Part shown: positions 19,463-33,666 of the stretch, piece after piece
Position numbering within the stretch: the first letter of the stretch is position 1
Layout of the letters: each line of letters begins with the position of its first letter
Origin: Lichenifustis flavocetrariae
GTDB taxonomy: Bacteria > Pseudomonadota > Alphaproteobacteria > Rhizobiales > Beijerinckiaceae
Direction of reading: 5' to 3'
Assembly: GCF_026130545.1 (NCBI RefSeq)
Contig: NZ_JAMOIM010000041.1
Span: forward strand, 1-42,226
Length of the DNA: 42,226 nucleotides
Notes under the pieces: model-generated
What the model was told of the DNA's origin: nothing
Database searches by the model: none
The model's input: the letters and a program-made list of their open reading frames with translations, nothing else
Translations under genes and position numbers: made by a program

Positions 19463-20308
19463 TTATCCGAAGCGACCGGTCACGTAGTCCCGCGTGCGCG
19501 GGTCCTTTGGATTGCTGAAAATCTGTTCGGTTTTGCCGACCTCCACGAGATCGCCGAGGTACATGAAGGCAGTGACGTCCGCGACGCGGGCGGCCTGCTG
19601 CATGTTGTGTGTGACGATCACCACGCAAAAGCGTTTTGCAAGCTCACCGATGAGAGCCTCGATATGCGCCGTCGAGATCGGGTCGAGCGCCGAGCAGGGC
19701 TCGTCGAACAATAGGATCGCGGGTCCGGTCCCAATGGCCCTTGCGATGCAGAGGCGCTGCTGCTGACCACCCGAAAGTGAAGCCGCCGGTGTGGTCAGGA
19801 TGTCCTTGACCTCGTCCCAAATGGCTGCGTCGCGAAGGGCGGTTTCCACCATCCTTTCTCGATCCGAGCGAGGGGCCTGGAAGAGGACCCCGATCGGCAG
19901 GGCAACATTGTCAAAGATTGACATGGGAAGCACCGTCGACGCCTGGAAGACCATGCTAACGTCGGCGCGCAATTGTTCCAGGTTCGTTCCAGGATCGAGG
20001 ATGTTCTTCCCATCCATGAGGATTTCTCCGGTCGCGTGTTGACCAGGGTAAAGATCGTAGAGACGGTTCAAGCAGCGGAGCAACGTACTTTTGCCGCATC
20101 CTGAAGGACCAACCAGCGCAGTCACACTTCGGTCCTCGATATCGAGGGTGATGTGCCTGAGTGCCTGCGTTGTCCCATAGAAGAAATCGAGGTTTTGAAT
20201 CGAGATCTTGATCCCACTTTCGATGCACCCAAGACGCGCCATCTGATGGCGGCGCGCCAACTCACCCAGCGCCGTCACGTCAGATTTGAAGGGCGGAATG
20301 GAGGTCAT
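19463..20308 (-). CDS. pstB: PstB-type phosphate ABC transporter ATPase (orphan)
   Basis: This 281-residue ABC ATPase belongs to the phosphate-import group. Walker A is GPSGCGKSTLL, followed by RCLNRLYDLYPG, the Q-loop in VFQASTVLPMSI, the signature LSGGQQQRL, Walker B ILLFDEPCSALDP and the switch histidine in VTHNMQQAARVAD. The LNRLyDL, GEILMDG and NMQQAARV stretches are characteristic of PstB. ATG 20308 has AAAGGAGA ideally placed upstream; the frame is open to 20404 but that extension is not family-like. No pstS, pstC or pstA is in the window, so the partner permease is elsewhere or the ATPase has another role. It diverges from the PhoU-like/DUF47 gene at 20648, which is suggestive because PhoU proteins work with PstB. 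Confidence 0.88.
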   Translation of the reverse strand: MTSIPPFKSDVTALGELARRHQMARLGCIESGIKISIQNLDFFYGTTQALRHITLDIEDRSVTALVGPSGCGKSTLLRCLNRLYDLYPGQHATGEILMDGKNILDPGTNLEQLRADVSMVFQASTVLPMSIFDNVALPIGVLFQAPRSDRERMVETALRDAAIWDEVKDILTTPAASLSGGQQQRLCIARAIGTGPAILLFDEPCSALDPISTAHIEALIGELAKRFCVVIVTHNMQQAARVADVTAFMYLGDLVEVGKTEQIFSNPKDPRTRDYVTGRFG

Positions 20309-20647
20309 ATCATTCTCTCCTTTGATCCCCCGAAGGTTCACCAATATCTGTTCGATCAGGAAGCGGCGCTCATCTTCGGGCGTGACGTGTTTCAACAGGC
20401 CCAAAGGTGTTGCAGTACCAAAGCGGCTCGAGACGTCCGTTAAATGACACTGCGGTGAAAACTTCGATCCGATTTCGCATAGTAAAGACGCGTTCTTGCT
20501 GCCGAACGTGGCGCAAAGATCTCGCTATGATCAATGGCGGTGAGAGCCGAGTTCGAATCGGTCAAGCCATCGATCTCTGCAAGGCCTGCCAGTGTCGGCA
20601 TTCTCAACGGGCCGTCCCGTCTGGCGTAACATGGTATCGAGGCGGTC
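20309..20647. promoter_or_regulatory. Divergent promoter region, pstB and DUF47 genes
   Basis: 339 bases shared by the divergent pstB and PhoU-like genes. It should contain promoters in both directions. I looked for Pho-box-like direct repeats (CTGTCAT type) and did not see convincing ones. A loose TTTCGCATAGTAAA near 20473 recalls the CGAATAG motif but has mismatches. Confidence 0.35.
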
Positions 20648-22555
20648 ATGAAAACACAGGTGCTCGATACCCTCGGCGAGGACGGGCTCGCGCTGCCCGC
20701 GCAGATCGAGGCGGGTCTCGCGGCCAATGATCGGTTAAAATACTATTTCTCTTTGCTTCAGGTCGCCCGGTCGCATGCCGATCACCCTGATCGGCCGTCT
20801 TCTTCGCTCAAGCGAGAGCGCCTCGCGGCGGGCATCCACGAAAACGGCCTTGATGAACTGGTGGCAGCGGCGAGGCAGGACGGGGCATCCTACCGGTTTG
20901 CCGGGTGCAGTCACCTGATGTCCGCGATTATGGACGACGCGCGCATCATGGCCGCTCCGGCTGATGCGGAGAAGAAGGAGCGCTTAGCACTCCTTCTGAA
21001 GGCCATACCGCACGCCGCCGACGACAAGGTCCTCGGTTCTGACATCGACACGATCACGCGAGCCGACGACGATCACGGCGACAGCCTGCACCGGCTGGTG
21101 ATGGACCTGCACAAGGTCCTCAATGCCTTGCAGGTCGGGCTCGCGGAAGAGAAGATCGGCGGCGCGGCCGCGTATCATCTCGGCGAGGGCGACAAGGATC
21201 TGGTCCGTGCTTTCATGGAGGGCGTGAACCGGACCGCGCCGCTCAAGTTCGATCACCCCGGGCTGGGGACGACAGCGACCCGGTCCGGAACCCGGCTCAT
21301 CATCCAGAACGACATCGGCACCACGGATGCCCACGTGATCGTCGTGCATGTCGAGGCGAACAAGGTCAGCTTGACCTACAGCGACGTGCATCTCCAGCGG
21401 CTTCAATACTTCCAGGGCCTGCTGGAGCCGTTCGCCGTCGTGTGGTCGAATCCGAACAGCAACCAGGTTCCGACGCTGGCCGGCGGGCAGCCGTTCTTCC
21501 TCTCAACCGCAACCTTCGACGTCAAGGACAACAAGGATCTCCTGGCCTACCTCGATCACCTCGGCTCGCGACTCGTCTTCCTGATCGACTGGAACCATGC
21601 CCGCAAGCAATTGCGCGGCTTTCTCGTGAAGGAGGATCGCTCGCGCTTGCTTCGCTGGGCGGCCGATGCGGACGTCGGGCATCGGGGTTTTCTGCAAATG
21701 GGCGGCGCCCGGTTGATATGGAGCGCGGTCGAGACGGCTGCCGTCAGCGCGGTCCGTCTCGGCGATCGCCTGTGCGACGTGCTCGGAACGGAGAGTGCCT
21801 ACGCGTTTGTCCAATTCGTCTTCACCACGGCCAGCGAGGGACTGCGCGCGCGGCAATCGGACAGCCTTATCCGGGATCGTGTGCGGGCCGAACTGCTCAA
21901 CCTCCTGCACACGGCCGGCACTCGTCTGCTTGGGACGGCGGCCGATCATGCCGGATATGTTTTCGAGATCGCGACGGCCATCCGCGATCAACTCGTTGAC
22001 CCTCGCGGCGATACCGCCGAGCTGAAAGACCTCACGAAACGGGCTCGGCACTGGGAACATGAGGCAGACCTGCTCGTCGCGGGCGTCGCGGAAGCGATCC
22101 GTCGCCGCCCGGAGCTGGAGCCGGTGCTAAGACTGATCCAGGCGGCCGACGACGCGACCGACAGTCTGGAAGAAGCGACGTTTCTGCTAAGCCTGTTAGA
22201 CGACCACGGCGACCGCAAGGGGCTGGAGGCGTTGCAGCCTATGGCCACCGTCCTCGTCGAATCCGCGCAGGAATGGGTCAAGGCTCTGAACCACGCCAGG
22301 CATGTGCGACGTCACGGCTTGCGGGACGACGCCGACGACTTTCTGGTTGCAATCGATCGTCTGGTGGCGCTGGAGCACGACGCCGACACCGCGGAACGCG
22401 ACGTCACCGTCGCGATCCTGAAGACAACCAAAGACTTCAGATCACTACACGTCCTTTCGAAGATCTGGCACGGGCTCGGCGACGCATCCGATTCGTTGAA
22501 GCGGGCCAGCCTGATCCTCCGTGACCATGTGGTGGGCGATGTTCTCGCAGCTTAG
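20648..22555 (+). CDS. Large protein with PhoU-like/DUF47 C-terminus
   Basis: This 635-residue protein has a C-terminal helical domain (about 410-635) of the PhoU-like/DUF47 type. Metal-binding acidic motifs repeat there: HWEHEADLLVAGV, QAADDATDSLEEAT, LEHDADTAERDV and LGDASDSLKRAS. DUF47 proteins act with phosphate permeases (Pit) or bind metal and phosphate-related ligands. The N-terminal 400 residues are not recognised. They look like a helical segment (1-150) followed by an alpha/beta region with strands DAHVIVVHVEANKVSLTYSD and RLVFLIDWNHARKQLRGFL, the latter suggesting a globular enzyme-like or ligand domain. No signal peptide or membrane helix is seen. GAGG precedes the ATG. The stop overlaps the start of the dikinase-like gene, indicating coupled translation. 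It diverges from an orphan pstB. Far longer than the usual 210-residue DUF47 protein, so a fusion. Confidence 0.75.
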   Translation: MKTQVLDTLGEDGLALPAQIEAGLAANDRLKYYFSLLQVARSHADHPDRPSSSLKRERLAAGIHENGLDELVAAARQDGASYRFAGCSHLMSAIMDDARIMAAPADAEKKERLALLLKAIPHAADDKVLGSDIDTITRADDDHGDSLHRLVMDLHKVLNALQVGLAEEKIGGAAAYHLGEGDKDLVRAFMEGVNRTAPLKFDHPGLGTTATRSGTRLIIQNDIGTTDAHVIVVHVEANKVSLTYSDVHLQRLQYFQGLLEPFAVVWSNPNSNQVPTLAGGQPFFLSTATFDVKDNKDLLAYLDHLGSRLVFLIDWNHARKQLRGFLVKEDRSRLLRWAADADVGHRGFLQMGGARLIWSAVETAAVSAVRLGDRLCDVLGTESAYAFVQFVFTTASEGLRARQSDSLIRDRVRAELLNLLHTAGTRLLGTAADHAGYVFEIATAIRDQLVDPRGDTAELKDLTKRARHWEHEADLLVAGVAEAIRRRPELEPVLRLIQAADDATDSLEEATFLLSLLDDHGDRKGLEALQPMATVLVESAQEWVKALNHARHVRRHGLRDDADDFLVAIDRLVALEHDADTAERDVTVAILKTTKDFRSLHVLSKIWHGLGDASDSLKRASLILRDHVVGDVLAA

Positions 22556-24149
22556 CCCCGTGGGGCCGCGCCAGCCCTTCTACATGGTCCTTGCCGGCGA
22601 GGCTCTGCCGCCCGGCAAGGCCGTGGAGGTGGGCAACAAGGCCTACAACCTGATGTGCATGGCCTCCGTCGGACTGCCGGTTCCCGCCGCTTTCGTCCTT
22701 CCCACGCATTGGTGCGAGGGATGCCCGCCGGGACACGAACGCGCGACGGCGCTTACGAACGCGCTTGCCGACGGGATCGCGCGCCTGGAGCGGGCAACCG
22801 GCCAGACTTTCGGCTCAGGCCGCAAGCCGCTGCTTGTATCGGTGCGGTCCGGAGCCTCGATCTCGATGCCTGGTATGATGGAAACAGTCCTCGACGTCGG
22901 CTTGAACGACGAGAGCGTCGAGGGCCTGATCCGCACGACCGGCAATCCCCGCCTTGCCTGGGACAGTTACCGGCGTTTGATCCAGGGTTTCGCCGAGGTC
23001 GTGCAAGCCTTGCCCGTCGAGCCGTTCGACCGGCTCATCCAGGAAGCTCTCGTCACCGAGCTGTGCGCGAATGAGCGTGGCCTCGATCACGTTGCGCTGC
23101 GCCAGCTCGCCAAGGCCATGCTGGCGCGGTTCCGGGATCTAGCGGGCACGCCTTTCCCGCAATCCCCAACCGACCAGCTGTCCCGCGCCACGGATGCCGT
23201 CTTTCGGTCCTGGGACGCGCCGAAGGCGGCCGAATACCGGCGTCTGAACCACATCGACGACGCAATAGGTACCGCCGTCACGATCCAGACCATGGTGTTC
23301 GGGAACGCCGGCGGCAGGTCGGGGGCCGGCGTCGGCTTCACGCGCGACCCTGCGACCGGCGAGAACGTCCTCTACATCGACTTCCAATTCGACGGCCAAG
23401 GGGAGGACGTCGTCGCTGGGCGCATCGCAATCCGCGACCCGGAAAGGCTTCGGTCGGCGCTTCCCGCCATTTGGGATCGGCTCGAAGAGATCCGAGGCAT
23501 GCTCGAAACGATGTTCGGCGACGTCCAGGATTTCGAGTTCACCGTCCAGGACGGGAAGTTGTACTTGCTTCAGACCCGCACCGCCAAGCGCACCCCTTGG
23601 GCCGCGCTCAGGATCGCAGTGGATCTCGTCGAGGAAGGGCTGGTCAAGCCCGCCGATGCATTGGAGCGGCTGCACGGGATCGATCTCGACGGAGTCGTCC
23701 GGAACCGTCTGTCGGGAACGCAGGATCCGCCCCTGGCGTCGGCGACCGTGGCGGGGATCGGCGTCGCGGCTGGGCGGATCGCGCTCGATCCCGCCGCGGC
23801 GAAGCGCTACGCCGCCGGGAGAGACCCTGCGATCCTGGTCCGGCGCGAGACGACGACGGCCGACATCCTTGGGATGGCCGATGCCGCCGGCATATTGACC
23901 GCCTTGGGGGGGCGGACCTCACATGCAGCCGTGGTCGCCCGCCAGCTCGGAAAGGTTTGCCTGGTCGGCTGCTCTGAACTTTCGAGCGATCTCGGAGACC
24001 GCACTTGCCGCATCGGGCCGCGGACCTTGGCTGAAGGCGACTGGTTGACCCTCGATGGCAATTCCGGTTTCGTTTACGCTGGGCACCTGCAAACCTTGGT
24101 CGAGCATCCGGAACGCGAGTTGGCGGCAATCCGGAAATGGGTTCGGTGA
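22539..24149 (+). CDS. Pyruvate phosphate dikinase-like, no PEP domain
   Basis: This 536-residue protein has the ATP-grasp and phosphohistidine domains of pyruvate phosphate dikinase. Signatures are NKAYNLMCMASVGLPVPAAF, LLVSVRSGASISMPGMMETV, GVGFTRDPATGEN, DGQGEDVVAG and QDFEFTVQDGKLYLLQTRT. The swivelling-domain motif GGRTSHAAVVARQLGK has the phosphate-carrying histidine near residue 461. Full dikinases are about 880 residues; the C-terminal barrel that binds PEP/pyruvate is missing, and the protein ends shortly after the swivel domain. It can probably phosphorylate its histidine from ATP, but the acceptor is unknown. ATG 22539 overlaps the end of the DUF47-type gene by 17 bases; an ATG at 22521 is also possible. 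About 460 bases of gene-poor DNA follow, with no detached barrel gene in this window. Confidence 0.85.
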   Translation: MFSQLSPVGPRQPFYMVLAGEALPPGKAVEVGNKAYNLMCMASVGLPVPAAFVLPTHWCEGCPPGHERATALTNALADGIARLERATGQTFGSGRKPLLVSVRSGASISMPGMMETVLDVGLNDESVEGLIRTTGNPRLAWDSYRRLIQGFAEVVQALPVEPFDRLIQEALVTELCANERGLDHVALRQLAKAMLARFRDLAGTPFPQSPTDQLSRATDAVFRSWDAPKAAEYRRLNHIDDAIGTAVTIQTMVFGNAGGRSGAGVGFTRDPATGENVLYIDFQFDGQGEDVVAGRIAIRDPERLRSALPAIWDRLEEIRGMLETMFGDVQDFEFTVQDGKLYLLQTRTAKRTPWAALRIAVDLVEEGLVKPADALERLHGIDLDGVVRNRLSGTQDPPLASATVAGIGVAAGRIALDPAAAKRYAAGRDPAILVRRETTTADILGMADAAGILTALGGRTSHAAVVARQLGKVCLVGCSELSSDLGDRTCRIGPRTLAEGDWLTLDGNSGFVYAGHLQTLVEHPERELAAIRKWVR

Positions 24150-32478: not shown

Positions 32479-33666
32479 AGGCTGCGTCCCTGGGCCCGCA
32501 AGACCGCGTGGGTCTCGTCCGCGATGACCTGCTCTTCATCGGTCGGGACGACGAGCATGGCGACCTTCGCGTGAGCGGCCTAGATCCGTGTGAGATTGCG
32601 CGCATTGGCGTCGGCGTCGACCGCGACGTCGAGCCAGGCGAGGCGGGCGCAGATGGCGGCGCGGATCTCGGGCTGATGCTCGCCGATTCCGGCTGTGAAG
32701 ACCAAGCCGTCCAGTCTGCCGAGGGTGTTGGCGGTGGCGGCCACTTCCCGGGCAATGCGGAAGGCGAAGAGGTCGAGCGCCTCGCGTGCGGCCGATTCGG
32801 GGCTGGCGAGGAGATCCCGCGTGTCGGCGCTGAGGTGTGAGACCCCGAGGAGCCCCGCGCGATAGTAGAGCATGTCCTCGACGGCCTCGATCGTCATGCC
32901 GCGCACCTTGACGAGATGCACCAGGACGCCCGGATCCAGCGCGCCCGAACGCGTCGCCATCGGGATGCCGTCGAGGGTCGAAAAGCCCATGCTGGTGTCG
33001 CGGCTGACCCTGCGTCCATCCTGCAGAGGCTCGCGCCGCTGCCGAGATGCGCGACGACGACGCGCCCCGCCGCCACCTCCGGCGCGACCTGACGGAGACG
33101 GGAGGCGATGAACTTGAACGAAAGGCCGTGGAAGCCGTAGCGCTTGATCCCCTCGTCGAACAAGGCACGCGGCAGGGCGAAACGGCGCACGAGGTCGGTC
33201 TGGCTGCGGTGGTACGCCGTGTCGAAGGAGGCGACCTGCGGCAGGTCGGGCCTGAGATGCCGCACCGCACGGATCAACCGAATGCTTTGCTGCTGGTGCA
33301 GGGGTGCGAGTGGCACGAGGCCCTCGATGGCGGCGAGCGTTTCATCCGTGATCGCCGTCGGCCCGTTGGGTCGGTCTCCGCCGTGGACGACCCGGTGTCC
33401 GACTGCCGACAGATCCGCCACCGCGAACTGATGGACGACCCAATCGAGGATCTGCTCGATCACCGCGTGGAGGTCGTCCGTCACCTTTGCCTTCACCGGG
33501 ATATCGATCCGCGTCCCCCCCGGTCGACCCGCAGGGTCAGAGGCTTTTCGGGCAGGTCGACCTCGCCCCCGCCGATGGCACGCATGCCGCGCGGTTCGAT
33601 CGCGAACAGGCCGAGCTTGATCGACGACGATTCCGGGTTGAAAGCGAGTAGGGTGTGATCGCTCAT
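32475..33666 (-). pseudogene. ackA: Acetate kinase, two frameshifts and an amber stop
   Basis: Acetate kinase makes ATP from acetyl phosphate. The whole about 397-residue gene is present in pieces. From ATG 33666 the frame reads LLAFNPESSSIKLGLFA (the family usually has NAGSSSIK) to KPLTLRVDRGG. One more base in the seven-C run at 33515-33521 would restore KAKVTDDLHA. The middle has VGHRVVHGGD, VASFDTAYH, RYGFHGLS and VVVAHLGSGASL, then a shift near 33023-33026 (probably a 4- or 7-base loss). The next piece is MGFSTLDGIPMATRSG, ending FTAGIGEHQPEIR and NARNLTRI, then TAG at 32580. Past it, AAHAKVAMLVVPTDEEQV continues to a natural stop at 32475. It follows the MCE gene by 30 bases. As sequenced it encodes no functional enzyme. 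Confidence 0.82.

Follow-up and report, generated by a model that had tools for sequence, protein, structure and literature searches.

Gene organization of the locus

The window examined in this study is a contig of 42,226 nucleotides (contig C116) from the 7.5 Mb genome of the alphaproteobacterium Lichenifustis flavocetrariae, hereafter the host. Positions 19463-24149 of the window, as delimited by open reading frame (ORF) coordinates, comprise a pstB gene and, diverging from it, a pair of overlapping plus-strand genes (here also called the module) coding for a PhoU-like fusion protein and for a relative of pyruvate,phosphate dikinase (PPDK) without the phosphoenolpyruvate (PEP)/pyruvate-binding barrel. 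The pstB gene (19463..20404, minus strand) is separated by a divergent intergenic region of 243 nt (20405..20647) from the gene of the 635-aa PhoU fusion (20648-22555, plus strand), which in turn shares 35 nt with the gene of the 542-aa dikinase (22521..24149, plus strand). An earlier note, made from the sequence alone, had described a PstB without PstSCA, a divergent protein with a PhoU-like C-terminus and an N-terminus of no nameable family, and an overlapping dikinase devoid of the barrel; each of these observations was borne out by the searches reported below.

The dikinase, which may in fact begin a few codons inside the ORF, was found to contain a PPDK_N domain (PF01326), with its best ATP-grasp stretch at residues 77-303 (22749..23429, plus strand) and a second stretch that scored too, and a PEP-utilizers domain (PF00391) corresponding to the phosphohistidine swivel domain at residues 435-516 (23823..24068, plus strand; GGRTSHAAVVAR), while the C-terminal barrel (PF02896) is absent. 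The alignment with PPDK 1kbl spans residues 18-512 of the 873 of that enzyme, and of the PPDK domains the protein has just the first two. H468 (codon at 23922-23924, plus strand) aligns with PPDK H455, and K40, R109, R152, D337, E339, Q351, and R353 align with PPDK K22, R92, R135, D321, E323, Q335, and R337, which we take to be ATP-site and catalytic residues. In two alignments of dikinases, A2 (13 sequences) and A4 (16 sequences), the equivalents of K22, R92, R135, E323, Q335, R337, and H455 are invariant wherever covered, and the D321 position in A4 is occupied by D in 13 sequences and by E in 3. Both H468 and T466, the latter at what is presumably the regulatory threonine position of PPDK, are kept in 13/13 and 16/16 dikinases, respectively. 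The protein does not reach the cut-off of the PPDK family TIGR01828 (512.3 vs 843.45 bits) or that of NF004531 (PRK05878; 432.8 vs 456 bits), which we assume to cover the truncated PPDK relative Rv1127c. Five other module dikinases were also below the NF004531 cut-off, and three truncated PPDKs from outside the module (Rhodococcus, Skermanella, and Azospirillum proteins) were above it.

In the 635-aa protein, PF01865 (PhoU_div) was detected at residues 433-621 (21944..22510, plus strand) with 28.2 bits against a gathering cut-off of 24.4. The assignment of this C-terminal helical domain agrees with a full-length AlphaFold2 model (mean pLDDT 90.2), the C-terminal part of which matches the PhoU-like structure 3l39 (Foldseek, E 3e-4, TMt 0.80), and with the conservation of the acidic ExxxD/DxxxD motifs of PhoU_div (E470/D474, D501/D505/E508, and E576/D580). 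In an alignment of 60 PhoU fusions, consisting of the window protein and those of 59 of the 80 loci described below, 45 sequences matched PF01865 at E<=0.01, some of them under the gathering score. The N-domain (residues 1-404; 20648..21859, plus strand), proposed here as an acceptor domain, matched no Pfam or NCBIfam family. When a model built for the domain alone from 40 sequences (pLDDT 88.9) was compared by Foldseek with PDB and with the viral database BFVD, no structure matched at E<=0.001. Faint fold matches to Arp2/3, SpcU, and YbjN were not used, and a match to DUF1045 at residues ~100-195 was treated as noise, since it was found in only 2 of the 60 members and below the cut-off.

Conservation of the fusion is concentrated in the N-domain and not in the PhoU part: 81 of its 404 positions are at least 95% identical among the 60 sequences, compared with 17 of the 231 in the C-terminal part, so that the N-domain holds 81 of 98 such positions; 38 of these 81 are polar, Tyr, or Trp. 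Conserved residues include H148, H155, H203, QND at 220-222, H229, D246, H248, DWN at 314-316, R319, K320, and H345. This pattern fits an active or binding site, and it makes the N-domain the leading acceptor-side candidate in a phosphotransfer reaction.

Conservation of the pair and of its accessory pstB

Relatives of the PhoU fusion were collected by scanning genome contigs with an alignment (A1), and the best 80 of 475 coding stretches, a sample that favours close relatives, were kept (15 archaeal and 65 bacterial loci). A dikinase gene was found directly downstream of the PhoU fusion in 78 of the 80 loci, starting between -55 and +103 nt from its end as extrapolated from the alignment, and in the remaining two the contigs end 128 and 9 nt past the PhoU fusion. 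Within the order of the host, relatives of the 635-aa protein are present in 13 of 297 genomes, host included. In one of them (G266) the match is weak and confined to the PhoU part; the remaining 11 regions all have the dikinase next door, although split over two contigs in G296 and with an interrupted ORF in G210. Among plasmid records, three match the PhoU fusion; the two that were opened contain the pair, and the third has a dikinase match that starts 5 nt past the PhoU-fusion match. In an archaeal sample of 32 fetched regions, 7 of which are contigs also represented among the 80, the pair was detected in 31, and the one region without it (L188) is truncated by the end of its contig. The pairing is thus almost absolute, real and strongly conserved, more than chance would give, as the earlier note had asked to be checked.

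The N-domain was matched in 4 of 398 Pseudomonadota genomes, host included, and in 43 of 199 genomes of the archaeal class to which G655 (Methanoculleus, L118) belongs. Of the latter, 37 contain full-length matches, in some cases divided between frames or contigs, whereas the other 6 contain only diverged homologues (frames of 332-361 aa in five genomes and of 184 aa in one). No dikinase was found beside these diverged homologues in the five regions examined (L168-L172, stand-alone ORFs of 330-339 aa in archaeal genomes of ~3.0-3.9 Mb), and the motifs QNDIG and DAHV were absent by eye, so they were of no help as a clue to the N-domain.

Barrel loss is fixed across the module dikinases: 70 of the 72 dikinase ORFs closed by a stop are 525-595 aa long, and the other two (28 and 459 aa) look interrupted. 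A tree of 31 dikinases has a branch supported at 100/100 that separates the 22 module members chosen from six full-length PPDKs, including that of the host (contig C31), and from the three truncated proteins from Rhodococcus, Skermanella, and Azospirillum plasmids; VadK itself is not in the tree. The truncated PPDK of a Rhodococcus opacus B4 plasmid (L121, 5833-7545), above the NF004531 cut-off, is encoded between P450 and ferredoxin genes, and another group of truncated PPDKs outside the module clade is found with a pyruvate kinase gene close by on two Azospirillaceae plasmids (L123 and L218), the former in a glyoxylate/hydroxypyruvate cluster.

The window PstB, an ABC ATPase whose start may be up to ~65 codons inside the ORF, matches TIGR00972 over residues 67-313 with 342.3 bits (342.9 in a second scoring), just below the cut-off of 343.2. 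When the host's own PstS, PstC, and PstA were used as tblastn queries, no match was obtained in the window, and hence this copy is not encoded with the partners expected of a PstB. The canonical PstB of the host (383.6 bits) was located on contig C169, where it adjoins PstC and PstA according to NCBIfam, and where PstS, PhoU, and PhoB were named by eye from the ORFs. Because the canonical gene sits there beside its partners and none of these occurs in the window, the window gene is the second, orphan PstB of the genome. Defined as a strong PstB gene without PstS/C/A in the fetched DNA, an orphan PstB also accompanies the pair in 7 of the 80 loci, all alphaproteobacterial (L041, L049, L059, L060, L061, L067, and L081); six of these seven pass the TIGR00972 cut-off, and that of L081 (334.3) is below it. 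The count of 7/80 may be low, since flanks of at least 2 kb on either side of the pair are available for only 49 of the 80 loci. The pstB gene of L059 comes immediately before the pair, and the frame of the L081 PstB overlaps with the stop codon of the dikinase; in a PstB tree with weak support the orphans were not recovered as a single clade. PstB is a side component, seen in the window and in these 7 loci. Of the module of PstB plus pair proposed earlier, it is the pair that proved to be conserved. A decayed second copy was noticed elsewhere in the host genome (L039; contig C167, 719-3300), with genes for a BON protein and an Acg-type reductase, a C-terminal piece of PstB, and a PhoU-fusion fragment with stops.

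Gene neighbourhood and proposed phosphotransfer

The gene neighbourhood in archaea points to polyphosphate/storage metabolism. Genes for PPK1, Ppx/GppA, CHAD, and a SixA-like histidine phosphatase are repeatedly found near the pair in archaea and in some delta-type bacteria, and at least one of them was found in 6 of the 15 archaeal loci (L076, L080, L082, L091, L117, and L118). CHAD domains are described as polyphosphate-binding modules (PMC6537752). In the 199 archaeal genomes, PPK1 is present in 123 (35 of the 37 with the module vs 88 of 162 others; Fisher p 8e-7) and CHAD in 112 (35 of 37 vs 77 of 162; Fisher p 2e-8), where the six genomes with diverged N-domain homologues are counted among the others and the p-values take genomes as independent. 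Two genomes with the module (G819 and G846) have neither PPK1 nor CHAD. In at least 8 of the 37 genomes (G655, G848, G668, G849, G695, G750, G674, and G707) PPK1 lies within 10 kb of the module on the same contig, compared with 0.41 expected under flat placement. Bacterial examples include a Geobacteraceae locus (L102) in which CHAD, Ppx, PhoU fusion, and dikinase, by their Pfam names, are consecutive on one strand, a Ppx gene in L119, and PPK2 genes 3.5-7.5 kb from the pair in L072, L086, and L104. A weak 47-bit CHAD match was obtained in L079, and Pst genes are found near the pair in L083 and L114.

We propose, with a probability of roughly 40%, that the pair is a split dikinase in which the N-domain of the partner replaces the barrel as the acceptor site, most probably for polyphosphate or phosphate. 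In a first step, the truncated PPDK would bind ATP, phosphorylate H468, and release AMP together with PPi or Pi; this step is supported by the conserved residues and by the activity published for VadK (described below). The swivel domain may then dock on the ~400-residue N-domain, which would stand in for the barrel and offer a different acceptor. In a third and weaker step, the acceptor would be inorganic polyphosphate or phosphate, so that the pair would make or spend polyphosphate while cycling ATP/AMP. If the reaction were reversible like that of PPDK, stored polyphosphate could serve to regenerate ATP from AMP when energy is short. Adjusting or anchoring the pair would fall to the PhoU_div domain and, in some alphaproteobacteria, to an orphan PstB. 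As a mechanism, a split phosphohistidine-transfer enzyme is likely, and polyphosphate is a plausible acceptor given the gene neighbourhood. The suggestion in the earlier note that the histidine serves another acceptor, perhaps the neighbouring domain or phosphate, stays the best reading, the acceptor itself being inferred. In its most specific form, namely a two-protein polyphosphate dikinase unrelated to PPK1/PPK2, which would use a swivelling phosphohistidine to move phosphate between ATP/AMP and polyphosphate, would be common to archaea and bacteria, and would have a partner protein whose acceptor fold is new, the proposal is rather unlikely to hold in every part.

Several observations weigh against the split dikinase with a polyphosphate acceptor. 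The polyphosphate acceptor is deduced from gene neighbourhood, and the archaeal co-occurrence is confounded by shared descent, which inflates the values given above. Polyphosphate links in bacteria are few and thin: in searches with a few reference proteins, 5 of the 65 bacterial loci, those with Ppx, CHAD, or PPK2 named above, show such a link, L079 adds its weak CHAD match, and PPK1 was found in none of the 65, only 41 of these loci reaching at least 2 kb past the pair on both sides. There was no known polyphosphate binder among the fold matches shown. Moreover, the dikinase is interrupted in L030, L060, and L063, perhaps through sequence error or decay. Finally, the acceptor could be a protein, because VadK is proposed to be a regulatory kinase.

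This last possibility leads to an alternative, somewhat unlikely in our view, in which the dikinase would be a protein histidine kinase and the PhoU fusion its dedicated target or adaptor, relaying the energy state (ATP/AMP/Pi) to phosphate transport or storage enzymes, with the orphan PstB as one output. Such a role would find a precedent in VadK, which is reported to autophosphorylate its histidine and to interact with methylcitrate-cycle enzymes (PMC13400623), and the N-domain histidines H148, H155, H203, H229, H248, and H345 could accept phosphate. The position of the orphan PstB beside the pair, with overlapping frames in L081, speaks for the same idea, but no orphan PstB was found beside the pair in the other 73 loci. 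Furthermore, the strict one-to-one coupling with an enzyme-like, highly conserved domain resembles two parts of one enzyme more than a kinase with its regulator, and the module clade stands apart from the three other truncated dikinases sampled. A phosphate- or energy-sensing system, as envisaged in the earlier note, was not established, and the archaeal context points to polyphosphate and storage metabolism.

It is improbable, though not without precedent, that the pair is a kinase of a soluble metabolite bound by the N-domain and that its neighbours merely belong to a common stress island. Rifampin phosphotransferase would provide the model (PMC4844700), and neighbour clusters in bacterial loci are mostly common to few loci; nevertheless, no recurrent metabolic pathway stood out, and the neighbours that do recur include PstB, Ppx, PPK1, and CHAD. 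As to a barrel acting in trans, which the earlier note had raised as an argument against its own reading, PF02896 was found in the host only within three large frames (696, 796, and 920 aa) and none was free-standing, so that a barrel in trans was set aside. Synthesis of PEP by a remodelled PPDK or PEP synthase, with pyruvate bound in trans by the N-domain or by a barrel borrowed from one of those three proteins, is thus very improbable, despite the retention of the first two PPDK domains and of T466 at the presumed regulatory position, given that the host has its own full-length PPDK and that nothing in PDB, TIM barrels included, significantly matched the model of the N-domain.

Beyond the pair, the window encodes a phosphoketolase, a GH65 enzyme, a USP, an Acg-type oxidoreductase, a P-type ATPase, and BON and VIT1 proteins. 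It also has an acetate kinase (32490-33496) that appears to be split over two overlapping ORFs (32580-32990 and 32894-33496) and may therefore be frameshifted. In genome G253, genes for phosphoketolase, acetate kinase, PhoU fusion, and dikinase follow one another on one strand, an order not seen in the other loci searched. The host genome contains PPK1 and two PPK2 genes, and one PPK2 gene is located on an island of contig C106 (L224) together with homologues of the phosphoketolase, GH65, and HAD genes of the window. This host context would fit a role in ATP/AMP management under energy limitation. A gene that clusters with a ribonucleotide reductase large subunit was also noted close to the pair in seven loci assigned to Betaproteobacteria, Burkholderiales, or Proteobacteria (L089, L090, L093, L097, L098, L099, and L108; Pfam-checked in L099). 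With regard to regulatory and RNA features, tRNA and Rfam scans gave no match in the window, the divergent intergenic region included, promoter and terminator scans were uninformative, and an FNR-type box pattern matched once against 0.53 expected.

Comparison with known systems

If the proposal is correct, a widespread phosphotransfer enzyme has gone unrecognised so far: 475 stretches code for relatives of the PhoU fusion (the best 80 of which were examined), and in the two plasmid records opened the annotation of the dikinase goes no further than PEP/pyruvate-binding domain-containing protein. It would give the barrel-less dikinase a defined acceptor domain, and PhoU-like fusions and orphan PstBs a role. 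It would also offer a testable route between ATP/AMP and stored phosphate in methanogens, in Nitrososphaerota archaea, and in Candidatus Accumulibacter (L114), whose genus is known to accumulate polyphosphate. The pair may thus form an enzyme of energy or phosphate storage that has been overlooked. Among open PubMed Central papers, none on the pair was found by title or abstract start.

The module dikinase resembles PPDK (EC 2.7.9.1; TIGR01828; 1kbl, 1dik) in its ATP-grasp and swivel domains, catalytic residues, and histidine, but differs from it in lacking the barrel and in forming a clade of its own. Barrel loss itself is already known and can leave a working histidine kinase, since VadK (Rv1127c) of Mycobacterium tuberculosis, a barrel-less PPDK relative, is described in a recent study as autophosphorylating its histidine with ATP and Mg (PMC13400623, 2026). 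According to the same study, VadK interacts with methylcitrate-cycle enzymes, is proposed as a regulatory kinase, and gains solubility from its operonic partner Rv1126c (PMC13400623). The window dikinase shows the same truncation as VadK, with only two of the PPDK domains left. The module differs, however, in its PhoU-fusion partner, in its spread over archaea and bacteria, and in scoring below NF004531, a contrast drawn from profile scores and published text; the word PhoU does not occur in the main text of the VadK paper (PMC13400623). This dikinase clade and its partner seem new.

The C-terminal ~190 residues of the PhoU fusion are like PhoU and PhoU_div proteins (DUF47; 3l39) in family, fold, and ExxxD-type motifs. 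In contrast to these, the window protein carries a ~404-residue domain ahead of them, and the window contains no PstS, PstC, or PstA match.

The enzymes PigC and RedH share the logic of an ATP-grasp domain, a swivel histidine, and a private acceptor domain, and weak matches of the window dikinase to PigC, RedH, and RPH profiles were obtained in NCBIfam. In the module, by contrast, the acceptor part would be on a separate protein, with a fold for which no known match was found. Rifampin phosphotransferase is a precedent for the combination of ATP-grasp, phosphohistidine, and private acceptor domains (PMC4844700).

With respect to PPK1 and PPK2, neither protein of the pair has a PP_kinase or PPK2 match in Pfam, and what would connect the module to these enzymes is the proposed substrate, together with the co-occurrence and clustering of PPK1 with the module in archaea.

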